From Candidatus Latescibacterota bacterium (GTDB taxonomy: Bacteria; Latescibacterota; UBA2968), in NCBI GenBank assembly GCA_021295695.1, contig JAGWBW010000014.1, positions 1-39,904 on the forward strand: a stretch of DNA of 39,904 nt, read 5' to 3'. Numbering within the stretch: position 1 is the first letter of the stretch; each line of letters opens with the position of its first letter. Made by a program: the position numbers and the translations under genes. Shown here piece by piece: positions 3,245 to 34,976 of the stretch. Under the pieces are notes generated by a model. That model searched no databases and was not told the origin of the DNA. It was given only the letters and a program-made list of their open reading frames with translations.

Positions 3245-3276
3245 GTCGTAGTTGAAAGTATTTTTCTCACCCAATC

Positions 3277-3317
3277 AAAAAGAAGGCGAGTTTTTTCAGG
3301 ACTCGCCTTCTTTTTTT
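3277..3317 (+). terminator. Rho-independent terminator after TBDR 1
   Basis: The stem AAAGAAGGCGAGT (3279-3291) pairs with ACTCGCCTTCTTT (3301-3313), loop TTTTTCAGG, followed by a T-run. It is nearly the same as the hairpin after the second TBDR (GAAGCCGAGT arm). Confidence 0.9.
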
Positions 3318-3412
3318 GTTAGCACTAAAAAAGATGTTGATTTATAAGCCGAAATGAGTACAATTTAGAACGATATTTCGTCCATTAGTCTATATTACGC
3401 CCCTGTGTTCAT

Positions 3413-3433
3413 AACACAAAGGAGTTTTTTATG
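3413..3433 (+). repeat. Leader segment shared with the first TBDR gene (copy 2), containing the RBS
   Basis: It matches 506-526 apart from one base (AAAGGAG here, AAAGGAA there) and ends at the ATG of the second TBDR. It holds the SD sequence and T6 spacer. The rest of the 113-bp region upstream (3318-3430) is AT-rich. It has a TATATT at 3391-3396 that could be a -10 element, but no convincing -35. Confidence 0.7.
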
Positions 3434-14645: not shown

Positions 14646-15248
14646 TTACTCTCCATCCCCTACTTTAGCAGAATCCACCACTGCAGGTGCTACATCTACA
14701 GAATCCATCGCTGCCGGCGCGGGTTCTGGGGGTTTCTCTCCCCAGAATGTCGCATCGGTATTCACCTGATAGACAATGCTTCGATCCGTCAAATACACCT
14801 CTGGACCATCGCCAATTCGCACGTAATTGCGCGCCCAATCAGTACTCGACTTGCCAAACACCGCGTGCGTGAGCAACTCTTCTTTCGCGTTATATACCTT
14901 GACATGCGTTCCCGTCGCATCATCTACGGCATACTTAGACCAATTGTCGGCCTTGTTCGTCATCAGAGTCTCGCGGCTCACCTTTAGCACTTGCTCAAAT
15001 AGTGCCGTGATCCGATGGTCCCGAACTTTCAGAGTATCATGTCCCACAATCGTCCACTCGACACCTTCCTTTTGCAGTGTCAGGCTATCGCCCGTCGCCA
15101 TCATTTCAACCCTGTAAATATCATCCGTATGCTGCTCGGGAAAGATCTGGCCTGTGGGAGTCGTATATCCGCTTTCTCGCATCTGCAAAAGCGCGTAAAG
15201 CACCATCAGTACTGCAATCCCGACAAGAAGCCATTTTAGATTACTCAT
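14646..15248 (-). CDS. DUF4340-domain membrane-anchored protein (second Gld module)
   Basis: A 200-residue protein with one N-terminal membrane segment (LKWLLVGIAVLMVLYALL, residues 4-21) and an extracytoplasmic domain of the DUF4340 type (QKEGVEWTIVG ... DHRITALFEQVLK ... YVRIGDGPEVYLTD). The last 30 residues are a low-complexity Ala/Pro/Asp/Val tail. ATG 15248 overlaps the stop of the GldG-like gene by 8 nt, so it is translationally coupled. The in-frame extension to 15284 lies inside that gene and is ignored. DUF4340 proteins commonly follow GldG-type genes in ABC operons; their function is unknown. It is the last gene of the operon. Confidence 0.85.
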   Translation of the reverse strand: MSNLKWLLVGIAVLMVLYALLQMRESGYTTPTGQIFPEQHTDDIYRVEMMATGDSLTLQKEGVEWTIVGHDTLKVRDHRITALFEQVLKVSRETLMTNKADNWSKYAVDDATGTHVKVYNAKEELLTHAVFGKSSTDWARNYVRIGDGPEVYLTDRSIVYQVNTDATFWGEKPPEPAPAAMDSVDVAPAVVDSAKVGDGE

Positions 15249-16749: not shown

Positions 16750-16751
16750 GA

Positions 16752-17465
16752 TCACCTCCACTTCCGCATGTCAATGCCGCGTACTGTAAGTGCCAAAAAC
16801 AACCAGATCAGTGAGCCGAAATAAACCAGATTACGCGAATCGACAACCCCGCGCGACATATTGGACAAATGGTAATCAACCGCCATAAACTGAAGGGGTC
16901 CGGCAAGAGCCGCAGGCACAAAAATCAGCAACTTATCGAGGAGATAAAATCCCAGTACAAACACTGCCGCGAGAATAAATGCAACGACCTGATTATCCGT
17001 CAAACTACTCGTAAACGTGCCAATAGCTGCGTAAAACGCCCCCACCAGGGCCAGTCCCAAATATCCGCAGATCACCCCGCCGTAGTCGATATTGGTCCCG
17101 ACAACCAAAAGCGTAAAAAAATGTACCAGTGTAAAACCCAGCCCAGCCAACACCAGGGTAAATGCCGACAAGTACTTCCCAATCACAAGTTCAAAATTTT
17201 TAATTGGAAGTGTCGCCATCAATTCGTGTGTGCCCGCGCTTTTTTCACGTGCAATTACCCCCATAGTGACTGCGGGGACAAAAATTAGATAGATCATCGG
17301 CGTAATATTAAATAGTGCCCGCATATCGGACTGATTGAACAAAAAGAACGTATTGCTAAAGAAATACCCGTTAAACAGGGCGAAAAATACCAGGAAAATA
17401 TACGCCATGGGACTCTTAAAATACGCGCCGACTTCTTTGCGGTAAATCGCCATCATATTATTCAT
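16752..17465 (-). CDS. ABC-2 type permease, GldF-like (second Gld module)
   Basis: A 237-residue inner-membrane permease of the GldF type. It has an N-terminal cytoplasmic segment (MAIYRKEVGAYFKSPMAY, the family signature), about six membrane segments and the ABC-2 loop PAVTMGVIAREKSAGTHELMATLP. It is homologous to the product of 7993-8754 (both have RE-x-AYF-SP/AP at the start and GKYLSA in the middle). Its start overlaps the ATPase stop by 8 nt and its stop lies within the RBS of the GldG-like gene, indicating tight translational coupling. Confidence 0.9.
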   Translation of the reverse strand: MNNMMAIYRKEVGAYFKSPMAYIFLVFFALFNGYFFSNTFFLFNQSDMRALFNITPMIYLIFVPAVTMGVIAREKSAGTHELMATLPIKNFELVIGKYLSAFTLVLAGLGFTLVHFFTLLVVGTNIDYGGVICGYLGLALVGAFYAAIGTFTSSLTDNQVVAFILAAVFVLGFYLLDKLLIFVPAALAGPLQFMAVDYHLSNMSRGVVDSRNLVYFGSLIWLFLALTVRGIDMRKWR

Positions 17466-19459: not shown

Positions 19460-21214
19460 TTACCGAATATTCATGGGGGCCATCTCCAGAACCTGTCTCG
19501 GCTGCCCCACTGTATGCACAAATCGAAAAACGGGTTGCAAATCTGTGGCGAATTTCATCAACGCATCGCCATTACTCAGTGTGCGGATTAGCCCTTTTTC
19601 CATCACCTGTTCTATCAGTGTCTTTTCTTTGGGAAACACTACGAGATTAAGAGATGCATCGGTGTCCAACTCCAATGCCTCCCGAACCAGACGCATCGCG
19701 GTCTTCATGCCGCCCAATTCATCGATCAGACCGTGCGCCCTGGCATCCTCTCCAGTCCAGATCCGCCCCTTTGCCACAGCGTGAACATCAGCCTGTGACA
19801 TATTGCGTCCTTCGCCTACTTTTGTCGTAAAATCTTCGTAAATGCGATCTAACCACATCTGAAATTTCGCCCATTGTTCGGGTGTAAATTCTGTACCCGA
19901 TCCCCATATCAGTGCATTCTCACCCACCTGCGCCGTATCCCAGGTAATGCCCAGACGTTCCCAAAATTCAGTTGTCACAAATTTTCCTGCTAATACCCCA
20001 ATGGATCCCGTAATGCTGCCGGGTTGTGCCACTATTTTGTCGGCATTCATCGCCACAAAATATCCTCCAGAACCGGCCACATTGCCCATTGATACAACCA
20101 CGGGCTTGTCCGCCTTCTTAGCTTTGGCAACCTCGCGCCATATCGCATCAGAAGCAATGTAAGACCCACCGGGAGAGTCTATTCGAAACAGAATTGCACG
20201 CACATCCTTATCCTTCACAGCATCGCGAAAGGCTTTGGTCAGCGTACTCGCACCCATTGTCCCTGACGCATATAAAGGATCGTAGGTACTCTTGCCGCGA
20301 TGCACAGGTCCCACGCCGTAGATCAACGCCACCTTTGTCCCTTCACTATATGGCTTTTCATCAATGCGCTTGAGATAATTCTTTATATCCAGCCATTTGG
20401 CATCTTTGCCGTGTTCGCTCTTCACCAGATCGCGCACCTCATCCCAATATGCCAGGCTATCTACCAGGCCTTCGGTATGGGCAGATAACGCCAAAAAAGG
20501 TCCGCGATTGATGAGATCGCTCACGGCTTCGGGCGTTGTACCCCGCGCCCTTGAAATGCCCAGGACCATCTGATCGACCATCGACTTTAAAAGTGTTTCA
20601 CTCGCTTCGCGGTGTGCGTCTGTAAATTTGGTTTCGGTATATAGGTTCATCGCATTTTTATACTCATATCGGTGATCCATCTGCACGCCAATCCCAAGCG
20701 TATCCAATGTTCCCCTGACAAAGGGATGCTCCATCGCCAGTCCCATCAAACCCACATCGCCCGAAGGTTGGAGATAGATATGCTCAAATGCCGTCGCCAG
20801 ATAATATCCGACATTGCCCGAGCCAAACTCGCCAAATGTCTCGGCAAAAATCGCGGTGGGTTTTCCGCTTTTGCCAAACGCCAGAACAGCGTCTCTTATT
20901 TCTTGTGCCTGTGCAAATCCCATCGGCGCACCGCCCCCACGAGCCAGCAATCCCACAACGCGATTATCCGAAGCCGCCGCGTCTAAAGCACCGACCACAT
21001 CGCGCAGCGAGCGCGTCTCGTCTGCAATCAACTTTGCAAACGGGTCTTCTGGCACATATTCCGCAATTCCCTGCTCCAGGTTGATCTCCAAAATTACCTG
21101 ATCGGGCACGGGATCCTCGCCGGATAGCAATGCAACTAACACGACGGTCAGGACGACCAGCCCAACCGTAATCCCACCAATCCACGCCAAAATCCGACCT
21201 ATTTTTTTTTTCAT
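19460..21214 (-). CDS. sppA: Signal peptide peptidase SppA, 67-kDa type
   Basis: A 584-residue membrane-bound serine protease that degrades signal peptides left in the membrane. An N-terminal membrane anchor lies at about 8-30. Two tandem ClpP-like/S49 domains follow: the N-terminal one supplies the general-base Lys (YEYKNAMNLYT, K186) and the C-terminal one the nucleophile Ser (NVAGSGGYFVA, S382, after RIDSPGG). Both residues and the spacing of about 200 residues fit E. coli-type long SppA. The start follows GGAGG at 5 nt. Codons 2-4 and the following A form a 10-A run. It is the first gene of a two-gene operon with the amidohydrolase-like gene. Confidence 0.93.
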   Translation of the reverse strand: MKKKIGRILAWIGGITVGLVVLTVVLVALLSGEDPVPDQVILEINLEQGIAEYVPEDPFAKLIADETRSLRDVVGALDAAASDNRVVGLLARGGGAPMGFAQAQEIRDAVLAFGKSGKPTAIFAETFGEFGSGNVGYYLATAFEHIYLQPSGDVGLMGLAMEHPFVRGTLDTLGIGVQMDHRYEYKNAMNLYTETKFTDAHREASETLLKSMVDQMVLGISRARGTTPEAVSDLINRGPFLALSAHTEGLVDSLAYWDEVRDLVKSEHGKDAKWLDIKNYLKRIDEKPYSEGTKVALIYGVGPVHRGKSTYDPLYASGTMGASTLTKAFRDAVKDKDVRAILFRIDSPGGSYIASDAIWREVAKAKKADKPVVVSMGNVAGSGGYFVAMNADKIVAQPGSITGSIGVLAGKFVTTEFWERLGITWDTAQVGENALIWGSGTEFTPEQWAKFQMWLDRIYEDFTTKVGEGRNMSQADVHAVAKGRIWTGEDARAHGLIDELGGMKTAMRLVREALELDTDASLNLVVFPKEKTLIEQVMEKGLIRTLSNGDALMKFATDLQPVFRFVHTVGQPRQVLEMAPMNIR

Positions 21215-21329: not shown

Positions 21330-21359
21330 AAAAAAGGGCATTTGAGAAAATGCCCTTTT
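21330..21359 (-). terminator. Rho-independent terminator after the DUF1854/ABC operon
   Basis: The perfect 12-bp stem AAAAGGGCATTT (21332-21343) / AAATGCCCTTTT (21348-21359) has a 4-nt loop. On the minus strand the arm runs directly into a T8 tract. It lies about 30 nt past the DUF1854 stop. Confidence 0.9.
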
Positions 21360-21388: not shown

Positions 21389-21958
21389 TCACACCACCGA
21401 TTCCAACAATCCCTGACTGCGGCGGTCCAGTGCCCTTATATCGGGTACCTCAAAGCGATTGTTATCCACATCAAAAATCATCAATCGCGTGTCTCCCAAC
21501 CACTGTGCGTTTTCAGCCACGGACTTAGCGACAAATTCGCGTCTGCCCCGGTCGGTATCAACAGTCCAGTACGTCACGCCGTATTCATTTTGCAACGCCA
21601 CGATCTTCTGGATCTCCGCCGTCAAATACCGATTGTCCAGTTCCTCATACACCAGAGCCTGGCTCTCTTCTGGCAAATCAGACAGGTCTTTGATCATGCA
21701 GATCGCTTCATCCTTGATATCCAGAATGCAAAAATAGCGATCCGGTTGTGTCAAAGGCGCGGCCCGCACCACTTTCACGCGAGTATAGGACCGATCCCCT
21801 TCAATCGTCATCCGCAAAATCCACTGTGGCTCCTTAAACAAGCGGATCTTACCCGGATCAACCGATTCGGGATGCACCATCTCAATTGGTATCGGCTTCC
21901 ACTCCTCTGTATTTTCTTCAATTTCTTCCACTTCCATCTCCAGCATATCCGTAGCCAT
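21389..21958 (-). CDS. DUF1854-family protein
   Basis: A 189-residue soluble protein of the DUF1854 family. The N-terminal third is acidic (MEVEEIEENTEEW). The family core is seen in WILRMTIEGDRSYTRVKVVRA, YFCILDIKDEAICMIKDLSDL, the alternating RYLTAEIQKI, and the C-terminal TDRGRREFVAK ... IFDVDNNRFEVPDIRALDRRSQGLLE. ATG 21958 has GGAG at a good distance; the upstream TTG at 21970 is less likely. Relatives have been annotated as cyanophycin-metabolism-associated because they sit beside cyanophycin synthetase and a paired ABC transporter in some proteobacteria. Here it is the last gene after two such ABC genes, with no synthetase. Biochemical function unknown. Confidence 0.82.
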   Translation of the reverse strand: MATDMLEMEVEEIEENTEEWKPIPIEMVHPESVDPGKIRLFKEPQWILRMTIEGDRSYTRVKVVRAAPLTQPDRYFCILDIKDEAICMIKDLSDLPEESQALVYEELDNRYLTAEIQKIVALQNEYGVTYWTVDTDRGRREFVAKSVAENAQWLGDTRLMIFDVDNNRFEVPDIRALDRRSQGLLESVV

Positions 21959-21981
21959 CAAAATCTCCAATCAGAATTACC

Positions 21982-24261
21982 CTACTCCAACTCTACCCCC
22001 ACCGCAGTCATAAACATATCCAATGTCGTCTCTTGCTGCGTCTTGACCAGACGATAAAAAATGCCCTCCCGGTCCATCAACTCTTGATGTGTACCGACTT
22101 CGGCGATATGGCCTTCATCCATAACCACGAGCCGATCCGCGCTGCGAAGGGTTGACAAACGGTGTGCAATGGCAAATGTCGTGCGCCCTTCCACCAGACG
22201 CGCAATCGCCGTTTGAATCTTCTTCTCGGTCGGCGTATCCAGCGAAGACGTGGCCTCATCGAGAATGAGAATCCGCGGATTGTGCAAAATTGCCCGCGCG
22301 ATAGATACCCGCTGTTTTTCGCCACCCGACAAACGCCCGCCGCTTTCCCCCACCCGCATGTCATAACCATCGGGCTTTTTGACGATAAACTCGTGTGCTT
22401 CGGCTGCCATTGCGGCGCGCATCACCTCGTCAAAGGTCGCGTCTGGTTTGCCATAGGCGATATTTTCGGCAATTGTGCCGTCAAACAAAAAGGGTTGCTG
22501 ATGTACCATCCCGATTTGGGATCGCAAATCGCGCAAGTTCACATCGGTCATCGGCACGCCATCCACCAGCAACCGCCCGCGATCGGGATCGTAGAACCGA
22601 CACACCAGATTGATCAGCGTTGACTTCCCAGCGCCGGACTTGCCCACAAGCCCAATCATCTCGCCCGCCTTTACTTCCAGATCAACGCCTTTGAGCACGG
22701 GCTTGCCGGGGTCATAACCAAAGAACACGGACTCGAACTTCAAACCGCCCTCGAGTTTGGGCAGCCGCACAGCATCGGGTTTTTGGTATGGTTCGGGTTC
22801 GAAATCGATCACCTCGAACACGCGTTGTGCGCCAGCAAATGCCCGCAAAATATAACTGTAAAAATCGCCAAACCATCGCAGCGGTTGGTACAACATCCAG
22901 AGATAACTCATAAATGCGATTAACGCACCCAGCGTCAATTCTCCGTCCAGAATCTGTCGTCCGCCAAAATACCAGACAAAAAATACCCCTGCGTTCATAA
23001 ACAGATTTGTCACAGTAAAAAAAATAAACCAGGCCCGTTCGCCCCGGGTATCCACATCGCGCAAATCTTCGTTGTACTGGTCAAATCGCTCGCTCTCTTT
23101 TGCTTCCTGTGCAAATGCTTTCACCACGCGAATGCCGTGAATCGACTCATTTAACTGTGCCGATAGCCTGCCCCACTTGCCCGACCACTGCGTCCAGAAT
23201 GTCATGATGCGGTACCATATCTTTGTGCCAGCGAGCAAAATCAATGGAATGGGTGCCATCACAAACAGCGTGAGCTTCCAGTTCATCCACAACAGAAAAA
23301 CCAGAATACCGACAAATAACAGGCTGTTGGAAAATACAAAATAAAAATCATACACCATAATCCCTTCCATGCGGTCCGTATCATTATTCATGCGAGACGT
23401 CAGCGCGCCCACTTTTCGCCGATCGTAAAAGCGAATGGGTACCATCTGAAAGGCTCGGTAGAGATCTTCCCGCAAATCGCCGATAGCGCGCAACCCCAAC
23501 GACCGACTCAGTGCCGCCATCGTCACATCGGCACCCCAGATCAACACCCGCACAACGACAAGTCCCAACGCCAACAGCCCCAATCGATCAAGGCGATCCG
23601 TTGACGCAATAAACGGAATCGCAACGGCATCCCAGCCCGCTGTCAAAACACCATCAATCACATACTCTGTAATTTTGGGTGGCAACAGCGTCAATAAAGC
23701 ACTGACAAATGTCAGAGCAATGGTTGTAACCAGGCGCACGGGATAAGCGGCCATATAACCCACAATGCGCCGAAACGTCTGCCATTTTTTCAAACACGCA
23801 GCGCACACCCCATTTTTTTCGGGCAACCGACGGCTACACCGTTCGCAGTGCGTCTGCTCCAATTCTGTGGGCAATGTCAGCGGCTCATTATCTGTCAACT
23901 GCCTGATGCCATCGGCTACTTCGGCAAACACAGCGGTGAGAGATGGCGAATACGGTACCTGTATTTCCGGTCCTGCTTTGTGCGTCAACGCCAGGGCACC
24001 CAACCCAACGCGCTCCTCCACTTTCACGTCTTCCACATCGCCAATCGCCATCGTCTGCGTGCCATCCACACCCGCTTCGGGAATTACCAGCACCTGTTGA
24101 TCGGTCACCACCACCCACTGAGGATTGTAATTCAGGAACTCGTCAAGATCCGTCGCCACCTGCATCAGCACGGTCTCGCCATTGGGCTTCGCCGCACTCA
24201 GCTTTTTTGCCACAGATGACGGCAGTTCTTCGATCAATGGTTTTCCAGGTAAATGATTCAT
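21982..24261 (-). CDS. ABC exporter with N-terminal domain and zinc ribbon (half 1)
   Basis: A 759-residue type I ABC half-exporter. Residues about 1-125 form a beta-rich domain (WVVVTDQQVLVIPE ... DVEDVKVEERVG) that resembles a PH-like/GRAM-like fold. A zinc ribbon follows (C139, C142, C153, C156: CERCSRRLPEKNGVCAAC). The six-helix transmembrane domain spans about 165-460. The nucleotide-binding domain has Walker A GKSGAGKST, signature LSGGEKQR, Walker B ILILDEATSSLD with catalytic Glu, and H-loop IAHRLS. It is a close paralogue of the next protein upstream, 6 nt away, so the two probably form a heterodimer. Both ATP sites look competent. The N-terminal extension is unlike ordinary MsbA/LmrA exporters and marks the DUF1854-associated family. 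Confidence 0.88.
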   Translation of the reverse strand: MNHLPGKPLIEELPSSVAKKLSAAKPNGETVLMQVATDLDEFLNYNPQWVVVTDQQVLVIPEAGVDGTQTMAIGDVEDVKVEERVGLGALALTHKAGPEIQVPYSPSLTAVFAEVADGIRQLTDNEPLTLPTELEQTHCERCSRRLPEKNGVCAACLKKWQTFRRIVGYMAAYPVRLVTTIALTFVSALLTLLPPKITEYVIDGVLTAGWDAVAIPFIASTDRLDRLGLLALGLVVVRVLIWGADVTMAALSRSLGLRAIGDLREDLYRAFQMVPIRFYDRRKVGALTSRMNNDTDRMEGIMVYDFYFVFSNSLLFVGILVFLLWMNWKLTLFVMAPIPLILLAGTKIWYRIMTFWTQWSGKWGRLSAQLNESIHGIRVVKAFAQEAKESERFDQYNEDLRDVDTRGERAWFIFFTVTNLFMNAGVFFVWYFGGRQILDGELTLGALIAFMSYLWMLYQPLRWFGDFYSYILRAFAGAQRVFEVIDFEPEPYQKPDAVRLPKLEGGLKFESVFFGYDPGKPVLKGVDLEVKAGEMIGLVGKSGAGKSTLINLVCRFYDPDRGRLLVDGVPMTDVNLRDLRSQIGMVHQQPFLFDGTIAENIAYGKPDATFDEVMRAAMAAEAHEFIVKKPDGYDMRVGESGGRLSGGEKQRVSIARAILHNPRILILDEATSSLDTPTEKKIQTAIARLVEGRTTFAIAHRLSTLRSADRLVVMDEGHIAEVGTHQELMDREGIFYRLVKTQQETTLDMFMTAVGVELE

Positions 24262-24267
24262 GTGAAC

Positions 24268-26496
24268 CTATTCCTTAATCGCAATAATCTGTGAAATCTC
24301 TTCTTGCATCTGAACCAATTTGTAAAACATGCCCTTCTTTTCAAGCAATTCGTGGTGAGTTCCAATTTCCACAATGCGTCCGGCATCCATCACCAGCAAC
24401 CGGTCGGCATTGCGAAGGGTGGATAAACGGTGGGCTATTGCAAAAGTTGTTCGTCCTTTGACCAATCGCACAACCGCATCTTGAATGCGTTTTTCCGTTT
24501 GCACATCAACAGATGATGTTGCCTCGTCTAAGATCAAAATCCTGGGATCGTGTAAAATAGCCCGCGCAATGGACACGCGCTGCCGTTCACCCCCCGAAAG
24601 CGATTCTCCTCGCTCGCCGATAAGCGTATCATAGCCATCGGGCTTCGTCACAATAAAGTCGTGTGCATGGGCCGCCCTGGCCGCTGCCACAATCTCATTG
24701 AATGTGGCGCCCGGCTTGCCATAGCCGATATTTTCTGCAATACTGCCCGAAAACAGGAATGGCTCCTGCAACACAATGCCAATTTGAGACCGCAAATCCT
24801 CCAGCCGAATATCGCGTAAATCCACCCCATCCACCACAATGCTTCCGCGGTCAACATCGTAGAACCGACAAATCAGATTCACCGTTGTCGTCTTGCCCAC
24901 ACCGGACTTTCCCACCAGCCCGATCATTTCCCCCGGTTTGATATCGAGGTCAATTTCGTGAAGCACGGGCTTGCTTTTGTCGTATCCAAATGTGACGTCA
25001 TTGAACGTCACGCGCCCCTCGATATGCGGCATCGGCACGGCATTGGGGTCCTGATACGCTTCGGAAGGCGTGTCGATAATCTCAAAAATGCGCTCTGCAC
25101 CAGCCAGGGCGCGCGTCATCCACGAATTGACCATTCCAAACCATTCCAGCGGACCGTAAAGCAACATCATATAACTGTAAAAAGCCATCAAAGTGCCGAG
25201 CGTCAACTCCCCATCAATCACCTCCAGCCCCCCGTAATACCAGACGATGATCACGCCCGCCGCCGTCAACAGAGTCATCGTTTTGTAAAAAATGCCCTGG
25301 TTGACCTCTGCGGTAATACCGATGCGCGTCAATTTGTCATTGCGCCTTTTGAACACCCGAATTTCCTGCTTTTCCTGTGCAAATGCCTTCACCACGCGAA
25401 TGCCCGTGAGCGCTTCATTGACCCGCGACATCGTCTCAGACCACGACTGCATCCAGCGGGTAAAAAACTTGCGCATCCGCCGATAAAACGCATAGCCCCA
25501 GATCATAATTAACGGAACGGGAATCAGCACCAGAATAGCCAGTGACCAACTCATCATAAACAGCGCGGCGAGAATACCCAGCAACATCATCGCCTCAATC
25601 ACCAGATAGGGCAATCCATCGACGAGAAATTGCTGCAAACGACTGCTGTCACTCGTTACGCGCGACATCACGGCGCCAACTTGTCGTTTGTCGTAAAATT
25701 GCAGGGAGAGCAACTCCAAACGCCTGTAAAGCTGGCTGCGGATATCCGCCGTCACCCGTGCGGAAAGCCATGTAACGGTCCAGCCGTGAGCCCATTCTGC
25801 GCCCCAGATTATCAGCCGGATACCCACCAGAGCCAGCACGAGCCATCCGAGCAAACTGAGACGGGTGGTCTCCAGCACCTCTGAGCCTTCGGGCGGCACC
25901 AGCACATCATCGACAATGAGCTTTGTCACATAAGGCGGAAGCAACTCGGCAACCGTCCCCACAATCGACGCCAGAGCCAGCACAATCGCACGTGCTTTGT
26001 AGGGCTTCAAATACGATGCAATGCGCCCCAACGTTGCAAATTTGTTTAGACAGGCCGGACATATCCCATTTTTTTCAGGCAATAGTCGGCCACACGATTC
26101 GCAGATTGTGCGATCCAGATTCGCATTGATAAAAAATTCTTGCCCCTTGCGCAGTTGCTCAATCCCTCGCGTGGTCTCCGAAAATTTTTGTGCCTGCGTC
26201 AGGGAATAAGGAACATGAACGGTCGGTTTATTTTTTCGATGAATTTCCAGACGCGCACCGCCCACCAGAGCCTCGGTTCGCGCCAGTTCTATTTCTGAAA
26301 TAGGAATATCTGCAATCGTGCCATTTTGCCGCACCAGCACGCGATTGCGCGTCACCACCACCCACTGGTTTCCGAAGTCGCCTTTTTCATCCAGGTCAGT
26401 TTGCACCCGGATAAGTTCGTCTTCCCCTTCGGGCAAAGCGTGTCTCAACCAGTTCAAACTACCGTTTTGTCCATTATCCAGTAAACGATCCATCAT
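24268..26496 (-). CDS. ABC exporter with N-terminal domain and zinc ribbon (half 2)
   Basis: A 742-residue paralogue of the preceding entry with the same order: N-terminal domain (WVVVTRNRVLVRQNGTIADIPISEIELAR, about 45-75), zinc ribbon (C132, C135, C146, C149: CESCGRLLPEKNGICPAC), transmembrane domain, and NBD with GKSGVGKTT, LSGGERQR, ILILDEATSSVD and IAHRLS. Start choice: GTG 26511, ATG 26496 and ATG 26493 are in frame. AGGAG at 26501-26505 favours one of the two ATGs, and 26496 is taken. The gene starts inside the 3' end of the phosphopantetheinyl transferase gene (23-nt overlap), so translation is probably coupled. Confidence 0.88.
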   Translation of the reverse strand: MMDRLLDNGQNGSLNWLRHALPEGEDELIRVQTDLDEKGDFGNQWVVVTRNRVLVRQNGTIADIPISEIELARTEALVGGARLEIHRKNKPTVHVPYSLTQAQKFSETTRGIEQLRKGQEFFINANLDRTICESCGRLLPEKNGICPACLNKFATLGRIASYLKPYKARAIVLALASIVGTVAELLPPYVTKLIVDDVLVPPEGSEVLETTRLSLLGWLVLALVGIRLIIWGAEWAHGWTVTWLSARVTADIRSQLYRRLELLSLQFYDKRQVGAVMSRVTSDSSRLQQFLVDGLPYLVIEAMMLLGILAALFMMSWSLAILVLIPVPLIMIWGYAFYRRMRKFFTRWMQSWSETMSRVNEALTGIRVVKAFAQEKQEIRVFKRRNDKLTRIGITAEVNQGIFYKTMTLLTAAGVIIVWYYGGLEVIDGELTLGTLMAFYSYMMLLYGPLEWFGMVNSWMTRALAGAERIFEIIDTPSEAYQDPNAVPMPHIEGRVTFNDVTFGYDKSKPVLHEIDLDIKPGEMIGLVGKSGVGKTTTVNLICRFYDVDRGSIVVDGVDLRDIRLEDLRSQIGIVLQEPFLFSGSIAENIGYGKPGATFNEIVAAARAAHAHDFIVTKPDGYDTLIGERGESLSGGERQRVSIARAILHDPRILILDEATSSVDVQTEKRIQDAVVRLVKGRTTFAIAHRLSTLRNADRLLVMDAGRIVEIGTHHELLEKKGMFYKLVQMQEEISQIIAIKE

Positions 26497-27250
26497 CTGC
26501 TCCTGAGTCACCCCTGCGTTTTGTCACACCCTTATTCAGACAAAGATCGCGCAACAAGTGTTTCACGATCTTCACCTCAACATCTTTTTTCGCAATCGCT
26601 ACCGACCCGATATAACCCTCTGCGGGTTCGAGGTGTAGCAGTGTCCAATCCTCTATATTGCCTTTTTTTATCCACAACAATTTTGCCTTGCGCCCCAAAC
26701 TGACTTCAAAATTTTTTAATGACTGGGCAAGACCGGTACCCACAGCTTTCAGATATGCCTCTTTGCGCGTCCAGCAACAAAAAAAAGCCCGACGCTGTTC
26801 TTCTCGCGGCAACGCAGACAACCGCTCGTATTCGCCAGGCGCGAAAAAGCGTCTCGCAATATCTTTTAGCTGACCTATCTTACGATCGAGATGCTCAACA
26901 TCAACCCCAATCTCGCAGCATCGAGAAATCGCGACAAGAGCCAGTCCTTCCGAATGGCTCAGATTGAATCGCAATTGGGATTTATCCCAGGGAGATGCCA
27001 GAGTGGGTTTGCCGTGTTCGCCATAAAAAAAAGCCAGTTCACCTGGCTTGCACTCCATGTATTTTGCGAGTATCGCGCGCAGGCATCCGCGTGCAGCAAC
27101 AAAGTGCGTTCGGTGCTTTTCAAAGAGAAACCTATCCGCACGCGCCCACTCATCTGCCGATAGCACCTCGGCCAACAGATGACCATCAAATGTCTCGCGC
27201 TCTAAATCCACTGCCCAGACATGGGCGGTATCAGTTCGCAAAATATCCAT
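26474..27250 (-). CDS. Sfp-type 4'-phosphopantetheinyl transferase
   Basis: A 258-residue enzyme that transfers phosphopantetheine from CoA to a Ser of a carrier protein. The Sfp/Gsp-type pattern is complete: FNLSHS (95-100), the Mg-binding GVDVEH (D117, E119), and CWTRKEAYLKAVGTGL (W160, K163, E164). Sfp-type enzymes usually activate NRPS, PKS or other secondary carrier domains, though in bacteria lacking AcpS they can also serve fatty-acid ACP. No carrier-protein gene is in the window, so the target lies elsewhere. The gene lies 32 nt after the DUF362 gene and overlaps the ABC gene. The last 15 residues are polar and outside the family core. Confidence 0.92.
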   Translation of the reverse strand: MDILRTDTAHVWAVDLERETFDGHLLAEVLSADEWARADRFLFEKHRTHFVAARGCLRAILAKYMECKPGELAFFYGEHGKPTLASPWDKSQLRFNLSHSEGLALVAISRCCEIGVDVEHLDRKIGQLKDIARRFFAPGEYERLSALPREEQRRAFFCCWTRKEAYLKAVGTGLAQSLKNFEVSLGRKAKLLWIKKGNIEDWTLLHLEPAEGYIGSVAIAKKDVEVKIVKHLLRDLCLNKGVTKRRGDSGADDGSFTG

Positions 27251-27282
27251 ATCTCTTGTACTGTTTCAGCAGATTTACCCCG

Positions 27283-28485
27283 TCATTCCAAACAGGCCTC
27301 ATAAGTCTCAAAGCGTTCGCCTTCGGTTTCTTCGGGATCGACTAACTTAAGCCACATCCCCTGGTCCTTTTTTTGTCCACTCAACTGCCTGCGGCTGCCC
27401 AGATTGGCAGGGTCCGCACCGTGCCAGATCACGTCGCCATCTTGCAAAAAGATAAATTCATTCCGATACCGGTCAACGATACCCCGCCGCCGATCCTGGT
27501 AAAGCAGAGCCTGCTCACAGGTGGTGCGGCGCCAGCTTTCCACTATTTTTTCGCTATCTGTGCGCTCCGAATCAAACTCGGCCAGGGGGGCAGATACCTC
27601 GCTTTCAAAATCGATCTCCCGCAAATCAACCGTACCAAAACCGCGCCTGTCCGCGATCAACAAATGATTGCGGTCGCGACGAAAAGGCGGGTTAGGCCAA
27701 TCAGACGCGGGGTCGTGACCCATCAAATGAGCACCACATGCATCGGTAGCAGTTACATGGTCACCCGCTAATAACGCATTGCAGATACGCCCCTGTCCGC
27801 CCCACTCTCTTCCCCATTGCCCGGTTAGTGCATCCACGATATTCAAACAGGGTTGGGTAATCAATCCCAAATCGGGCAACACATAAGACAGGCGGATAAA
27901 GTGGTGATAATAGGATCTTACACGGCCGTGCGGCAGCGTGATCGGAGGCAAACCAAACAGGTTTTTCATGCAAAGCGTAATCCCCATAAACAGATGATTC
28001 TTCATCTTAGCCACAGAAATCACCTCGGCCCCTTCAAAACACGCGCTGAGCGTATAGCGGTCAAACATACATCCGCCCCCCGGCACGTCATACTGTTTGA
28101 AGGGCGGCGCGTTTGAATCGACAAATCCCACATCGTATTCTTTCAAAATATGCGCGTAATTAAAATCCTCACCCATAAGATGTTCGCGCGTATAGGGGTT
28201 GGTATCCGTCGCAATAATTTCCGCACGGGTTCGCTCTCGCAACAAACGCAAAACAGCGCGTGCGACCATATCATCGACCAACTCGCGCCGTCGTCCCATG
28301 TAGTAAATAATGCGGTTGTGTAGCTTCATCATATTGAACTTGATCACAATCCGATTGGCTTTCTCCAGCTTTTCCCACGACCGATGCAATGGGTCTGTAA
28401 TGCGGCGCAAAGTCTGGTATATTTCTTCCTCTGATGTCCGCCAATTGCAATGCGCTGCGCGAACCTTGTAATTCTTCTCCGCCAT
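27283..28485 (-). CDS. DUF362-domain protein
   Basis: A 400-residue protein of the DUF362 type. Family features are the N-terminal NRIVIKFNM stretch, VISVAKMKNHLFMGITLCMKNLFGLPP in the middle and NIVDALTGQWGREWGGQGR, followed by LLAGDHVTATDACGAHLMGHDP. There is no CxxCxxC ferredoxin domain, which many DUF362 proteins carry. Function in this family is not established. ATG 28485 has GAGG at 5 nt. The frame extends upstream to 28785, but that would cross the divergent promoter region and overlap the neighbouring gene, so it was rejected. It is the first gene of the five-gene operon running to 21389. Confidence 0.8.
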   Translation of the reverse strand: MAEKNYKVRAAHCNWRTSEEEIYQTLRRITDPLHRSWEKLEKANRIVIKFNMMKLHNRIIYYMGRRRELVDDMVARAVLRLLRERTRAEIIATDTNPYTREHLMGEDFNYAHILKEYDVGFVDSNAPPFKQYDVPGGGCMFDRYTLSACFEGAEVISVAKMKNHLFMGITLCMKNLFGLPPITLPHGRVRSYYHHFIRLSYVLPDLGLITQPCLNIVDALTGQWGREWGGQGRICNALLAGDHVTATDACGAHLMGHDPASDWPNPPFRRDRNHLLIADRRGFGTVDLREIDFESEVSAPLAEFDSERTDSEKIVESWRRTTCEQALLYQDRRRGIVDRYRNEFIFLQDGDVIWHGADPANLGSRRQLSGQKKDQGMWLKLVDPEETEGERFETYEACLE

Positions 28486-28527
28486 TTCGACCTCTGTGGT
28501 TAAATGCGACGATATTAGAACTGTCCT

Positions 28528-28533
28528 ATTGTA
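28528..28533 (-). promoter_or_regulatory. Possible -10 element for the DUF362/PPTase/ABC operon
   Basis: TACAAT on the minus strand lies about 37 nt before the expected leader of the DUF362 gene. A convincing -35 was not seen; the upstream sequence is T-rich. The element sits in the 151-bp intergenic region shared with the divergent asparagine-synthetase-like gene. Confidence 0.25.
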
Positions 28534-28590
28534 CCTATAAAAGCGAAAAATGAAAAGTGAAATCATAAAGTTTTCCTTATATTGGGTACA

Positions 28591-28596
28591 TATAAT
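28591..28596 (+). promoter_or_regulatory. Possible -10 element for the asparagine-synthetase-like gene
   Basis: A perfect TATAAT lies 40 nt upstream of the ATG at 28637 and would give a leader of about 34 nt. No good -35 at 16-18 nt was found. This position also argues against the longer start at 28550, which would lie upstream of the promoter. Confidence 0.35.
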
Positions 28597-28636
28597 CTCG
28601 GACGAACGCCAGTGGGTATTCAGACAGGTATTTTTT

Positions 28637-30337
28637 ATGCTCGCAGGATTCACATCCCAATCGCCTCTTGACTTCCGCGAACTTACCCGCGCGCTCACGC
28701 GCATGGCAGATAGCCTTGTCGTACACCAAAAAGCGCATCCCTTCGTCGTTGCCCCGCATATTGCGGGTGTCGCGTTCGCACCCAATTGGCGTGCCGCCTC
28801 CCCTGTTTGCCAGACACAGACGGGATATATTGCTTATCTCGACGGTGAATTTTTCAACCGCGCCGCGCTGGCTCGCACTGCTACATCTGACCCCGAATTT
28901 TTGGTTCAGGCCATCACGAGCGAGCGCGAACTACTGAACCGTATCGATGGCCTTTTTGCTGGCGTGGTTTTCGACACGCACAAAAATGAACTGCATATTG
29001 TCACCGATCGCTATGGCTTGCGCCCGCTCTACTGGACGCGCCTGGGCAATCGCATTGCATGGGCCTCTCAGACCAAAGCTTTTCTTGCGCTGCCCGAGTT
29101 TTCGCCTGTGATTGACCCTATTTCCCGCGACATGTTTTTCGCCACCGGGCAATTGCCTTCTGATCGCACCTATCTCAAAGGCGTTGCACCCGTGCCCGCT
29201 GCAACGAAAATGACATTTCGCATCTCAGATGGTAGCCTCACACAGCAGCGCTACTGGTCGTGGGATGAAATTGCCCCCCTTGCAGGGCATCACAGCCAAC
29301 GCGAATTGGCACATGAATTGGGCGCGCGCTTTCGCAATGCCGTAGAACAGAGAACCACGTCGCAAACCGGTCTCGCTCTCAGCGGAGGCCTCGATTCGCG
29401 TGCGATCCTCGCCGCTATGCCCAGCGCCCCTAAAACCTTCACATTTGGCCACTCCGACAGCGCAGATGTTCGCATTGCCACTCAAGCAGCATCTGTAAAA
29501 AACGCGCCACACACCATCCTCCCCCTCCACAGTCAAAATTGGCTTTTGCCGAGAATCTCCGGTGTGTGGTATGCCGATGGCGCACTCGACCTGCTCCACA
29601 TGCACGGCATTGAACACCTCAAACAACAGAAAGAAGCCTGTGATATCTGCTTCAATGGCGCAGGTGGCGATGGGTTAGCAGGTGCAGGCCATCTGTTTCA
29701 TCCAAACGGACTTTCTGCTTATCTGAAAAATAAGCTACACATTCGGACAGACCGCAACACAATCCAACATCTCGAAACGGCATTTAACAATGCGGGATCG
29801 GCACACGCTTTTTACATAGACTGGCGCATGCGTGGGTTCACCGTGCACGGTCCCCGTCTGGGACTCTTACACGGCCTCGAATACCGCTTGCCATTCCTCG
29901 ACAATCAGGTTCAGGAATTTCTCTATTCTATTCCCCTGCAACAAAAAGCCAACAATCGCCTCTACCGACAAATGCTTCTCAAAACCTTTCCCGAATATTT
30001 CAAAAATATTCCCTATCAGGCCACGGGATTTCCCATCTCTCATTCCCCCTGGATCGTCAGGATCCTGCGGCGTCTCACCCGAATGCACAACCGCCCGCCC
30101 CATACCTTTGCCGATTACGCAAATTGGTTGCGCCAATCGCCGGGTAAAAATTTGTGCGACCATCTCCTCTACAACACATCTGAAACCTCCAGGCTCTGGC
30201 AACGCCATCTTGCGGGTGAAGATCACGCTATCATTTTGGGGCGCTACATGACCTATCAACTCTATCTTCTCCAACTTTTTGACGGCAAATACCGCACATC
30301 AGAAGAAGTGGCTGAACTTCTAAAGATTACCCCATAA
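28637..30337 (+). CDS. Asparagine-synthetase-like amidotransferase lacking the Cys nucleophile
   Basis: A 566-residue two-domain protein. The N-terminal Ntn-type glutaminase fold is recognisable (YLDGEFFN at 67-74, LFAGVVFDTH, DRYGLRPLYW at 124-133). The protein starts M-L-A-G-F rather than M-C-G, so the essential Cys1 is absent. The C-terminal synthetase domain has the PP-loop LSGGLDSR (248-255), so adenylation should be possible, and FNGAGGDGLAG where AsnB has the GxGxDE region. Loss of the Cys is known in beta-lactam synthetases and lasso-peptide cyclases, which form amide bonds without glutamine. ATG 28637 has AGG and a T6 spacer, like the TBDR starts. The gene is divergent from the DUF362/PPTase/ABC operon. 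Exact substrate unknown. Confidence 0.82.
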   Translation: MLAGFTSQSPLDFRELTRALTRMADSLVVHQKAHPFVVAPHIAGVAFAPNWRAASPVCQTQTGYIAYLDGEFFNRAALARTATSDPEFLVQAITSERELLNRIDGLFAGVVFDTHKNELHIVTDRYGLRPLYWTRLGNRIAWASQTKAFLALPEFSPVIDPISRDMFFATGQLPSDRTYLKGVAPVPAATKMTFRISDGSLTQQRYWSWDEIAPLAGHHSQRELAHELGARFRNAVEQRTTSQTGLALSGGLDSRAILAAMPSAPKTFTFGHSDSADVRIATQAASVKNAPHTILPLHSQNWLLPRISGVWYADGALDLLHMHGIEHLKQQKEACDICFNGAGGDGLAGAGHLFHPNGLSAYLKNKLHIRTDRNTIQHLETAFNNAGSAHAFYIDWRMRGFTVHGPRLGLLHGLEYRLPFLDNQVQEFLYSIPLQQKANNRLYRQMLLKTFPEYFKNIPYQATGFPISHSPWIVRILRRLTRMHNRPPHTFADYANWLRQSPGKNLCDHLLYNTSETSRLWQRHLAGEDHAIILGRYMTYQLYLLQLFDGKYRTSEEVAELLKITP

Positions 30338-31067: not shown

Positions 31068-34000
31068 TCACCACTCTTTCTTCCAGAATAACCCTACCGA
31101 TCCTCGCCTGCGTTGATTATTACCTTCATTCACCTCTTCTATCTGACTCGCTTCCAATATCACCTCTGGGAAGATCTCAAATTCCATCGTCGCTTCATAA
31201 GCCGTGCTCGAAAAATCCTGTGCGTAACTTATAAACAACCTGTCCCCAATATACTTGCCCAATCGAACCCTGGGGAGATTGCCTTCGCCAATATCGACCT
31301 CCACAAGATCCAGATGCAATTTTTGTCCAATGTGGCGCCCCAGGCGATTTGCAACAACCCCCGCAAACAGGTCCAGCGTATGGTCCAGCGTATGATCGCG
31401 GGAAAACTGAAATTGATCAGCCGGTCTGCCTGTCAACAGTAGAGATGCAATATTCCCCATATCCCTCCCCAATGACGGATCGCTGCTGTCAAACGAAATC
31501 TGCGGATACGTCAATGTCCCCCCCACTATGACAATAATATCAACAGGCTCTGGCTTCTCGCCCTCTGTAATCACAGCACGCACGCGCGTCTCGGCGCGAA
31601 TATCCAGATCGGGATTCCAGTCGGGCCTGCCCTGAAATTGAACCTCGCCCTGTGTAATACGCAAGCGGTTGTTTTGCCAGATGTAATTGCCCCTGCGGCT
31701 CGATATCGTACCGTAAATACGCGAATCTTCGCGATTTTTTATCACATCCAGATCGCCTCCAATTTCCACCTCAAAGGCCGGGTCGCGCAACCACACCTGT
31801 CTGTCAGCAGACACTTGCAGGTGTATTTCCGGGTCCCTCAGAAACGACGGCATTTCCGGGCTAGGTTCTTCAAACAATTCCGTTAAGCGGATCTCCGCCT
31901 GTTTTGTCGCCAGGCTCGGTACCCCGAGCAATTCCGCCAGGCGGATCTCTGCCTGTTTTGTCGCCAGTTTTCCCACAACTTTGCTGCCTTGCAGCGTTCC
32001 CGTGATCTGCAATTGTCCATCTGTCACAATTTGAAGTTCGGGCAGGGCAACTGGTTCAAAATCGCGGAGTTGTGCAGACAAATCCCATCTGCTCGGCAAA
32101 AAACCCTCAAGCATTATATCGCCAGAAAGATTCACCGAAGTCCCAATCGCAAGACTGTCAATCCAAATTTTTTCATCTTCAACCACAGCACGCCCCGAAA
32201 CAGGCGCGTAAGACCGATGCAGTTCGGGCAGGTGGAATACCCCATCTCGAATTTCGAGTACACCCTGAATATCCGGTTTCTCTAAACGACCACGCGCCTC
32301 CAGATCGAAAGATAACATCCCTGAAATCCCCTCAGAGGTACCGAAAAACGCGTTTGGAACTGTGCCAATTACCATTTCCTCAGACCGTTTTATCCCGGCC
32401 AATTCTGTTTTTTCATCCGCTAAGTTTGGGCGTGTCCTCAAAGCGATCCCCTCAGACCGAGCGCGCAAATGCATATCACCTGTACCTGCAATGGGAAAAC
32501 TGCCTAACAGTGCCAGGACTTCATCTCTATCGGGTACGACTTTCACCTCAAAGTGTATCCTGTCATTGCCCAAAGACACCTCTCCTGCGGCACTATCGAA
32601 TCCCACTCTTGATATTTCGCCCTTTGCAAGATCGAATTGAAAAAAAACAAGAGGATCAGTCAATGTGCCGGCAAAAAGCACTTCACCATTGAGAATGCCC
32701 CCCATACCTGAAGCACCCGCGAGAAATGCCCAGGGGCGCAAGTCCAGATCTTTTAACAACACCTCCACGGTTGCCTGAAAACCCTGTTGGTCTCGCGCGA
32801 TCAGACGCCCCGCTGGCCCAGAAAGCACTAAATGCTCGATGTGAACGCCATGAGATGGCGAATACGCAAACCGAACAGGTCCCTCGTTATGCAGCACCAC
32901 CTGATCGACTTTAACGTAAAGTGAATCCATTGCCACCTGAAAATGATCTTCTTTTTGTCCTGCGTGTCCGAAAAAAAGGACGCGGTTGTCCTGCTGTACG
33001 TCACTACCCAACAAAAATGATGTTTCGCCCTGTACATACACAGCATCGAAAAACACAGCTTGCAACGACCGATCTCCCCAGGTCAAGCGATCCACTTTCA
33101 GGTTAACAGCACCTGAATCTGGGCGCGACCATCGCGTATCAATTGCAATATTCTGAAGCGGGATGCCCACCACAACGATGCTATCTGTGCTACCTTGTGC
33201 AGTAAAACCGGGCGCATCCAACGTTCCCGACCAGGTGCCCGATAGAGCCACTGCCCCCGATAAATCTACATCTATCACCTCGCCTATCGCCTCTAAATCC
33301 TGTACATCCATCAGCCATTGGCCCTCAGAATACCGATCAATATGCCCCTGAGTGGAAAACGCCCCACCCTCGCCCGATAGATCAGCGCGAATATCAGATG
33401 CCCACTCAGAATTGACCAGTGCGGAAACTCGCAAACTATCTGCCGCGGCATTACCCACAATATTCCCCGCTAATTCAATGGTCAAATCGCCACCTGCGAT
33501 ACCATCCACATTGCCCGCAAGCGTCAGTGATGTGCCCCACCTTTCAGTATCCGTCAAAAAGGGTAACGCCACCTCCGTCTGGATATTCCCCGCAATAGCT
33601 GGTTTTTCTCCCTCAAAATGCAATTGCCCATTTCCGTTGATGCGCGTTCCCCAATTCTGCAAAGACATCTCAAAATGATCGATAAAAAGCCGTTGCTCTA
33701 CATATCTCGCACCATCAATACGCCCTGTCGCCCGCCCGACTTTTTTGGGCACATAGGGAAAGTGGCCCGCGTGCAAATCGCGAAATCGCATTTCCCATTC
33801 GCCATCCCAGGTGTTCAACCGCGCTTCCCCATTGCCCGCTATATTGCCACTTGGCCCATTAGCAGTGACCTGCGCCCGCAACAGGCCATTTGCCAAATTG
33901 CCGGTAAAACGCACAGAATCAAATCGCGTATCCCCGAACTGTACGCGCCGAAAAACACCCTCGGCAACAGCACGCTCCACGCCAGAAGAATCTATTGCAA

Positions 34001-34976
34001 AAGTAACCATTCCGTCCAGGCGTGTTCTGATACGGGGTAAATCGGTGTCAAATCCATCTGTGTATCCCAACGAAATGAGATCATTGGTCTCGATCTTTAA
34101 GACCACATCTCCACGCAATGCAAACGGCGCAATTCCCATAATGCCATTAAACGCAATTGCAGCTTCTTCATCTTTCACAATCAGTTCTGTAACAAGGGAT
34201 TGTAGACTGCCCTTCACGTTTCCACGCACCTGCATAGCGCGTGTGGGCAGATCGACCAGGTTTCTGAGATCTGCCAGCCACAAAGAATCGGCTTCTAAAA
34301 CGAGATCTACCTCGGGATTATCCAGTTGGCGCACCAATCCGCTCAGCAGAATGCGAGATTCACGGGTATGCAATGCCACATCGTTCAGTTGCAAGTCACC
34401 GCCCTGCAAAATGGCAATGCCTGACAAATTGGTCACTTCCAGCGGTGGATCGAACTGCACCGAGCGAAAACGCTCCAGGATCAAACGGCACTCCGATTCT
34501 CCCGCAAAAATAGCGCCCTTCAGCGCGATATCTCGCACCTGTGTGCCATCAACTACAATATTGGCATCCGCTATCTCCAGCGACTCAATATCCAAAGCCA
34601 AAGGTGGCAGAACATCCCCCCTCAGCGTCTCGGTCCCTTCGCCAGCAGCGTCAATCTGCATCTCAATCCCCGACAACCGCAGCCGACGAACCAAAGCCTT
34701 TCCCCTTATCAGGCTCCAAAAATTGTACGCCACATCGAGCGTATCCACATGCGCCCAATCCCCAACCTGCACATCCACAATGCGACAATCCCCCAGCGGA
34801 TTGCCCTGAATCTCACCAATCCGATAGATATCATCCCCTTGCCGAGACAGGGCGCGTTGCGCCAATCCGCGCAAAAAATCATTGGCATAGCCACTCGCGA
34901 CCAGCATTGCCACCACCGCCAGCACAATGCCCATGCCGACCAGGATCCAGATTATTGATTTCGTTCGTCTGCTCAT
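31068..34976 (-). CDS. tamB: TamB-like protein (DUF490), translocation and assembly module
   Basis: A 1302-residue protein with a basic N-terminus, one membrane anchor (about 8-28, WILVGMGIVLAVVAMLVA) and a very long beta-rich periplasmic part, as in TamB/AsmA-like bridge proteins that span the periplasm and help outer-membrane assembly or lipid transport. The C-terminal DUF490 region includes GNYIWQNNRLRITQGEVQF, PDLDIRAETRV, VGGTLTYPQISFDSSDPSL and a final LFISYAQDFSSTAYEATMEFEI. A 54-bp tandem duplication gives LATKQAEIRLAELLGVPS and LATKQAEIRLTELFEEPS next to each other near residues 1003-1038. It lies 70 nt downstream of a tamA-like gene, the classic pairing. No clear SD was found upstream of 34976. 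Confidence 0.88.
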   Translation of the reverse strand: MSRRTKSIIWILVGMGIVLAVVAMLVASGYANDFLRGLAQRALSRQGDDIYRIGEIQGNPLGDCRIVDVQVGDWAHVDTLDVAYNFWSLIRGKALVRRLRLSGIEMQIDAAGEGTETLRGDVLPPLALDIESLEIADANIVVDGTQVRDIALKGAIFAGESECRLILERFRSVQFDPPLEVTNLSGIAILQGGDLQLNDVALHTRESRILLSGLVRQLDNPEVDLVLEADSLWLADLRNLVDLPTRAMQVRGNVKGSLQSLVTELIVKDEEAAIAFNGIMGIAPFALRGDVVLKIETNDLISLGYTDGFDTDLPRIRTRLDGMVTFAIDSSGVERAVAEGVFRRVQFGDTRFDSVRFTGNLANGLLRAQVTANGPSGNIAGNGEARLNTWDGEWEMRFRDLHAGHFPYVPKKVGRATGRIDGARYVEQRLFIDHFEMSLQNWGTRINGNGQLHFEGEKPAIAGNIQTEVALPFLTDTERWGTSLTLAGNVDGIAGGDLTIELAGNIVGNAAADSLRVSALVNSEWASDIRADLSGEGGAFSTQGHIDRYSEGQWLMDVQDLEAIGEVIDVDLSGAVALSGTWSGTLDAPGFTAQGSTDSIVVVGIPLQNIAIDTRWSRPDSGAVNLKVDRLTWGDRSLQAVFFDAVYVQGETSFLLGSDVQQDNRVLFFGHAGQKEDHFQVAMDSLYVKVDQVVLHNEGPVRFAYSPSHGVHIEHLVLSGPAGRLIARDQQGFQATVEVLLKDLDLRPWAFLAGASGMGGILNGEVLFAGTLTDPLVFFQFDLAKGEISRVGFDSAAGEVSLGNDRIHFEVKVVPDRDEVLALLGSFPIAGTGDMHLRARSEGIALRTRPNLADEKTELAGIKRSEEMVIGTVPNAFFGTSEGISGMLSFDLEARGRLEKPDIQGVLEIRDGVFHLPELHRSYAPVSGRAVVEDEKIWIDSLAIGTSVNLSGDIMLEGFLPSRWDLSAQLRDFEPVALPELQIVTDGQLQITGTLQGSKVVGKLATKQAEIRLAELLGVPSLATKQAEIRLTELFEEPSPEMPSFLRDPEIHLQVSADRQVWLRDPAFEVEIGGDLDVIKNREDSRIYGTISSRRGNYIWQNNRLRITQGEVQFQGRPDWNPDLDIRAETRVRAVITEGEKPEPVDIIVIVGGTLTYPQISFDSSDPSLGRDMGNIASLLLTGRPADQFQFSRDHTLDHTLDLFAGVVANRLGRHIGQKLHLDLVEVDIGEGNLPRVRLGKYIGDRLFISYAQDFSSTAYEATMEFEIFPEVILEASQIEEVNEGNNQRRRGSVGLFWKKEW
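31860..31967 (-). repeat. 54-bp in-frame tandem duplication inside tamB
   Basis: Two direct copies (31914-31967 and 31860-31913) encode 18-residue units that share LATKQAEIRL-EL and end in PS. They differ at several codons, so the duplication is not brand new. It adds a register to the beta-helical body near the start of the DUF490 region. Confidence 0.85.

Follow-up and report, generated by a model that had tools for sequence, protein, structure and literature searches.

What is the role of an operon that joins two ATP-binding cassette (ABC) exporter genes to genes for a DUF1854 protein, a phosphopantetheinyl transferase (PPTase) and a DUF362 protein, and that faces an asparagine-synthetase-like gene on the other strand? 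This locus lies on contig JAGWBW010000014.1 of a Candidatus Latescibacterota bacterium (GenBank assembly GCA_021295695.1; 5.3 Mb in 415 contigs, 94% complete), and the stretch that we analysed, here called the window, comprises its positions 1 to 39,904. An earlier note, made from the sequence alone, had read the genes as a system that produces a small compound of amide or peptide type and exports it. Our analysis leads to a different answer: the operon is probably a lineage-specific assembly of independent parts, and its core is a widespread, undescribed exporter module composed of the ABC pair and a dedicated DUF1854 protein. This exporter module is the part of the locus that is worth study.

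The operon occupies the minus strand in the order DUF362, PPTase, ABC1, ABC2, DUF1854, with a terminator at its end. All six genes are located where the earlier note had placed them, and its gene calls, the minus-strand operon and the single terminator were all borne out by open reading frame (ORF) and domain searches and by a 12-bp terminator stem. ABC1 (24268..26511, minus strand) and ABC2 (21982..24261, minus strand) match PF00664 (ABC_membrane) and PF00005 (ABC_tran) far above cut-off, which identifies both as halves of type IV ABC exporters; solved homologues of ABC1 include TM_0288, MsbA and P-glycoprotein. The DUF1854 gene (21389..21952, alternative start 21970, minus strand; PF08909, 3.7e-39) has its nearest named relative in Candidatus Latescibacterota.

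The association of these three genes extends far beyond this lineage. A scan of genome contigs with a DUF1854 alignment gave 78 loci in Latescibacterota, records labelled Gemmatimonadetes or Poribacteria, Gammaproteobacteria, Fimbriimonadaceae, Myxococcales, Spirochaetaceae, Clostridia and Paenibacillus. Together with 29 loci from relatives and four from the own genome, partly the same places, 111 loci were compared. In 99 of them an ABC exporter gene lies on the same strand within 400 nt upstream of DUF1854; examples come from Latescibacterota, Poribacteria, Gammaproteobacteria, Spirochaetaceae, Clostridia and Paenibacillus. In 23 loci there is an ABC exporter gene within 400 nt downstream. 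Latescibacterota usually show the arrangement ABC-ABC-DUF1854, and Firmicutes ABC-DUF1854-ABC. The subtypes of the two partners also co-segregate: 124 loci were scored of 125 given, and 107 were concordant (94 + 13), six discordant (3 + 3) and 11 without an upstream ABC gene. Walker A, the Walker B glutamate and the H-loop are present in 101/101 ABC ORFs; these had been preselected for the zinc motif described below and the LSGG signature, which are thus present by construction. The module also stands on its own, since the ABC-ABC-DUF1854 triple occurs without DUF362 or PPTase alongside in three relatives (G011, G012 and G037).

Both ABC proteins carry the same N-terminal domains ahead of the transporter. 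Residues 1-175 of ABC1 were modelled with AlphaFold2 from 22 N-termini of both halves and several phyla; the model reached a mean pLDDT (predicted local distance difference test) of 91.2 and consists of seven strands, a capping helix, a ribbon and then the first transporter helix. Foldseek matched this model with probability 1.00 to GRK2, Sin1, DENND3, SSRP1, Rtt106 and ARAP2, all of which have PH-type domains, and the aligned part of GRK2 is presumably its pleckstrin homology (PH) domain. The N-terminus is therefore predicted to adopt a PH-like fold, a seven-stranded barrel with a C-terminal helix, at about residues 30-121 of ABC1 (26149..26424, minus strand). It is followed by a zinc ribbon, CxxC-x10-CxxC, at 26050..26103 in ABC1 and 23794..23847 in ABC2 (both minus strand), assigned by cysteine conservation and motif count. 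Its four cysteines are invariant in the 22 aligned N-termini, and the motif occurs in 114/120 related ABC ORFs that were chosen only on length and similarity. The earlier note was right about the zinc ribbons. Four of the six ORFs lacking it exceed 900 aa, with extended or merged frames, and the true share may therefore be higher. For DUF1854, a model (pLDDT 80.4, predicted template modelling score (pTM) 0.64) matched nothing in the PDB at E 0.001 or better in Foldseek. This suggests that the protein is without a close relative among the solved folds, and the search also serves as a rough control for the PH-like matches. In the open-licence literature we found no paper on DUF1854, PF08909, NF052233 or related names, and none on a zinc ribbon together with a PH domain and an exporter or on a bacterial PH domain fused to an ABC transporter.

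Several observations weigh against this interpretation. The PH assignment rests on a predicted model, and the Foldseek E-values are modest: the best is 5.5e-4, and nine are at or below 0.001 (eight GRK2 and one Leishmania domain). In the rows listed, TM-scores to the query range from 0.31 to 0.48, values below 0.5 that follow from part of the query lying outside the domain. No Pfam PH model reached E 0.01. The DUF1854 model has a pTM of only 0.64. DUF1854 is also not always adjacent to an ABC gene, since 12 of the 111 loci have none within 400 nt: L025, L144 and L147 lie at contig ends, the ABC gene is farther upstream at L127, L138 and L171, and no ABC gene is found in the sequence covered at L003 (C282 of the own genome), L018, L029, L143, L167 and L169. 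Finally, the sets of 111 and 124 loci have some members in common.

Computation shows that ABC and DUF1854 genes occur together, that the ATPase motifs are intact, that a PH-like fold is predicted, that the cysteine quartets are invariant and that the module is independent of cyanophycin synthetase; how the parts may work together goes beyond these results. ABC1 and ABC2 would, to judge from their gene pairing, form a heterodimer whose PH-like domains and zinc ribbons could build a platform in the cytosol where the pore opens. DUF1854 may bind this platform or the ATPase domains and present or gate the substrate, which would probably be an amphipathic lipid or peptide. The window pair shares its transmembrane and ATPase domains and the arrangement as two adjacent half-transporter genes with TM287/288, TmrAB and MsbA, and adds to them the PH-like domain, the zinc ribbon and the DUF1854 partner. 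A degenerate ATPase site is typical of heterodimers of the TM287/288 and TmrAB type; in contrast, both Walker B glutamates are present in the window pair and there is no sign of a degenerate site. The best functional parallel that we found for the module is enterocin DD14. Mutants in ddE or ddF, which encode PH-domain proteins, are reported to be unable to export this bacteriocin even though they express the genes of the ABC transporter (PMC8657885). As in the proposed module, PH-domain proteins there act in export with an ABC transporter, but they are separate proteins and the bacteriocin is known (PMC8657885), whereas in the window the exporter itself carries the PH-like domain and a gene for a peptide is not apparent. 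By this analogy, the PH-like domain, the ribbon and DUF1854 might jointly load an amphipathic substrate or gate its passage. We regard it as evenly balanced whether the family is, in its full form, a multi-phylum class of ABC exporters that carry a PH-like domain and a zinc ribbon on each half and a dedicated cytosolic subunit of new fold, DUF1854, and that use them as a docking or sensing platform for loading an amphipathic substrate.

Variants of the module were found as well. A second type, a single ABC gene with its own DUF1854 subtype adjoining genes that look by eye like resistance-nodulation-division (RND) pumps, occurs in the own genome, G013 and G037; the copy in the own genome has a zinc-ribbon ABC gene and lies at L005:5083-8014. 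The DUF1854 at L006:5434-6039 has a tail rich in Arg, Ser and Gly and is an orphan, as no ABC gene lies within 400 nt of it. At L134, L139, L140, L142 and L117 (f4-type), ABC-ABC-DUF1854 is followed by an adaptor and two permeases, HlyD/MacB-like by eye. No specific flanking gene recurs across phyla in the 30 clusters listed: the largest spans 16 loci and has an antisense-type frame as its example, and the other cross-phylum clusters look by eye like generic dehydrogenases and common enzymes. Long open frames had hinted at a fusion of DUF1854 to the ABC protein, which was rejected because the ABC frames at L201-L205 stop before DUF1854. A search for DUF1854 on plasmids gave no match.

The remaining genes appear to have separate histories. 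The Sfp/HetI-type PPTase (26474..27250, minus strand; PF01648, 2.3e-20, 73.1 bits) also matches NF042922 HetI, with 224 bits below the cut-off of 370. In a PF01648 search, each of 15 family genomes (own and 14 others) had a single PPTase, which for the own genome is the one in the window. Elsewhere in the phylum the same search picks up proteins of AcpS size (about 130 aa), which makes a missed AcpS unlikely. The window PPTase may thus serve fatty acid synthesis and is most likely a housekeeping enzyme that travels in the operon as a passenger. Since it is the only one in each genome, its presence is uninformative about a product-specific carrier, and the earlier suggestion that it activates a carrier protein for a product finds no backing.

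The first gene of the operon encodes a DUF362 protein of 400 aa (27283..28485, minus strand; PF04015, 5.7e-21), which gave only weak matches to solved structures (best E 0.029). In the literature, apparent mentions of DUF362 in one paper proved to concern DUF3623. Among the 60 genomes searched (own and 59 relatives), DUF362 matches of at least 55% identity are found in 44 of the 46 class-level relatives, G001-G046. In G011, G012 and G019 the gene directly follows a TamA-like gene and TamB, and PPTase and the ABC pair are absent from these loci. In G019, DUF362 is followed by a dioxygenase-like gene (by eye) and then by an orthologue (75%) of the amidohydrolase of the window. In family f4, a TolC-like gene (by eye) precedes DUF362 in 10 of 13 loci (L055-L067). 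The flank just upstream of the operon contains an Omp85 protein and TamB (31068..34976, minus strand; PF04357), which adjoins DUF362 in other genera too, and the reversed synthetase-like gene sits between TamB and DUF362. The window still shows the old TamA-TamB frame around DUF362, and the DUF362 gene would have come to the operon from this neighbourhood.

The divergent gene (28640..30337, plus strand; PF00733, 1.2e-16; GATase_7, 7.6e-14) has the GATase-like and Asn_synthase architecture and the SGGLDS pyrophosphatase loop of the asparagine synthetase and amidotransferase-type families (TIGR01536, TIGR03104, lasso cyclase NF033535), but its product is far under their NCBIfam cut-offs. A lasso peptide cyclase was considered and dismissed, at 74.1 bits against the NF033535 cut-off of 525. 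The loop is intact in all 13 orthologues. In contrast to the family, the catalytic N-terminal cysteine of class II glutamine amidotransferases is missing in 13/13, as the earlier note had seen for the window gene; the orthologues start with MLA, MIA or MPG. The glutamate of GxGxDE is lost in 13/13 (GGDGL instead), and the lysine aligned with the KxGF motif in 12/13, with G014 retaining it. We take the roles of GxGxDE and of the KxGF lysine from work on AsnB and beta-lactam synthetase. The ratio of nonsynonymous to synonymous substitution rates (dN/dS), 0.11-0.23 against nine genus members, indicates purifying selection; the corresponding values are 0.03-0.12 for DUF1854, 0.03-0.08 for DUF362 and 0.20-0.32 for PPTase. 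The lost motifs, the intact loop and the low dN/dS together suggest a selected protein that is expected to bind ATP and need not form amides. It is probably a non-canonical protein of the ATP-pyrophosphatase type rather than a working amide synthetase in this genus. The earlier label of an amide-forming enzyme is not supported, since residues thought to be needed for amide formation are missing. The gene likely starts at 28640, because a longer reading from the ATG at 28550 loses frame in at least one relative (G001) in an alignment of ten genus members.

The gene order is well conserved where the synthetase-like gene occurs. Its orthologue was detected in 13 of the 60 genomes, namely the own genome, ten further members of its genus and two from sister genera within the Latescibacterota; the next best match has 32% identity and belongs to another family. 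Each of the 13 has the gene opposite DUF362, after which PPTase, ABC1, ABC2 and DUF1854 come in a single direction. The earlier note had proposed co-occurrence in relatives as a test of the set, and the outcome is divided: the synthetase-like orthologue was never seen without the operon, which supports the suggested link between the two strands, but DUF1854 is present in 52/60 genomes and the ABC pair with DUF1854 alone in three, as described above. Eleven of the 13 genomes belong to one genus, in which synteny is expected anyway, and most of the weight comes from the two sister genera with 65-79% ABC identity.

Spacing is less constant than order. The stretch that separates DUF362 from the synthetase-like gene (28486..28639) has a mean column identity of 89% in 10 genus members; the sixth gene is indeed divergent, across 154 nt rather than the 151 given earlier. 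The distance is 148-155 nt elsewhere in the genus except in G009, where an insert of 6.3 kb separates the strands; this insert carries a nuclease-like gene, named by eye (L104:11254-12663). The operon of G013, from a sister genus, is broken inside the PPTase gene, so that its two contigs were compared one by one, and contains a 2.4-kb insert between DUF362 and PPTase; a malate/lactate-dehydrogenase-like gene (by eye) lies there at L103:10252-11268. In the window, 32 nt separate DUF362 from PPTase, 6 nt ABC1 from ABC2 and 11-29 nt ABC2 from DUF1854. In relatives the gaps are often wider: hit-to-hit distances reach 311 nt in G009, and those between ABC2 and DUF1854 are 32-157 nt. PPTase and ABC1 overlap by 38 nt, counted from the first GTG, or by less if an ATG a few codons on is used. 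The C-terminal 7-15 residues of the PPTase (window 26474-26500) are not conserved and six genus relatives stop at residues 244-252, so the overlap differs between genomes.

The intrinsic terminator after DUF1854 (21332..21359, minus strand) has a 12-bp stem, a 4-nt loop and a T-tract. A strong hairpin with a T-rich tail is found 3' of DUF1854 in 8/13 genomes (window, G001, G003, G005, G007, G010, G013 and G014); G004 has a partial and G009 a weak one, and the rule used detected none in G002, G006 and G008. The whole scan gave 16 terminator-like sites against 13.3 in shuffles (sd 3.8), thus no excess. Beyond the terminator, a gene for an SppA-type S49 peptidase (19460..21214, minus strand; PF01343) lies outside the operon. 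SppA is found downstream of DUF1854 in 12/12 relatives with the gene set, but 1.0-2.7 kb of other sequence parts the two genes in G002, G004, G006 and G008, which marks it as a syntenic neighbour outside the unit. At L211 (G006) and L212 (G002) this gap of about 1 kb holds an antitoxin and PIN-type toxin-like pair (by eye); G004 and G008 have different sequence at this position. Elsewhere in the window, two copies of an ABC_transp_aux/DUF7088 gene (8751-11786 and 15241-16761) each adjoin an ABC-2 permease gene, and three TonB-dependent receptors (524-6097 and 12421-14514) lie within the first 15 kb. No known RNA family was found in the window.

Other explanations of the exporter have to be weighed. 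The NCBIfam names point to a cyanophycin-associated transporter, and NF052233 (cyanophycin metabolism-associated ABC) and NF052234 (cyanophycin metabolism-associated DUF1854) are indeed the best NCBIfam matches, the former with homology over the full length including the N-terminal extension (residues 11-745 and 19-738 of the two ABC proteins). Yet all three proteins are well below the curated cut-offs, ABC1 with 685 and ABC2 with 589 bits against 880 and DUF1854 with 90 against 150. Cyanophycin synthetase (CphA) exceeded its cut-off in none of the 60 clade genomes, the own genome included, in agreement with the absence reported in the earlier note, and in none of 44 further DUF1854 genomes (44 of the 78 loci); the latter search did find the control, Deinobacterium. 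We reject the link, which is close to refuted for this clade. An MsbA-kind lipid flippase that serves the cell envelope would fit the TamA-TamB neighbourhood, with TamB and an Omp85 protein adjacent. PH folds often bind lipids, and TIGR02203 MsbA is the second-best named family of the ABC pair (464.9 and 490.4 bits). However, these scores are below the cut-off of 602, and C42 of the own genome scores higher as MsbA (533 bits), itself below the cut-off. The own genome has seventeen MsbA-like ABC exporter matches at E ≤1e-80, none over the cut-off, and also has an Omp85 protein and TamB. LpxB was not found in the 94% complete own genome, which makes lipid A an unlikely cargo; with C42 as the better MsbA match, we reject lipid A export as unlikely. 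The module also occurs in Paenibacillus, which is without an outer membrane. Overall, a flippase of this kind is rather unlikely.

That the operon and the divergent gene jointly produce and export a small compound of amide or peptide type is, in our judgement, improbable. The intact set in all 13 synthetase-bearing genomes, sister genera included, the conserved divergent promoter region and the intact SGGLDS loop speak for it. The sole PPTase, the changed catalytic cysteine, glutamate and lysine positions and the separate occurrence of DUF362 and of ABC-DUF1854 elsewhere speak against it. Furthermore, condensation domains were detected in 0/15 genomes (own, nine of the genus and five of the order; controls were detected), and the carrier domains of the own genome are five short stand-alone frames of 89-100 aa resembling acyl carrier proteins. 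A link to nonribosomal peptide synthesis is therefore rejected, and the product proposed in the earlier note is not supported. It is quite possible, though short of probable, that the five genes share nothing but transcription, with no joint role beyond general upkeep of the envelope. The separate histories of the parts, the concentration of the set in one genus and the widening gaps in relatives agree with this. However, the same order and direction are kept in two sister genera and the terminator in most members, which suggests an advantage of co-expression. We therefore favour, as probable, an assembly of independent parts around the exporter module, in which PPTase would most likely be a passenger, DUF362 would stem from the TamA-TamB neighbourhood and the divergent gene would encode a selected ATP-pyrophosphatase-type protein, probably without amide synthetase function in this genus.

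These findings have implications beyond the window. The label 'cyanophycin metabolism-associated' fails for this part of the family, and the lone PPTase is a warning against reading natural-product synthesis from the presence of such a gene. DUF1854 gains a testable role. If the prediction is true, a bacterial ABC exporter with a PH-like domain of its own would have an unusual regulatory layer.

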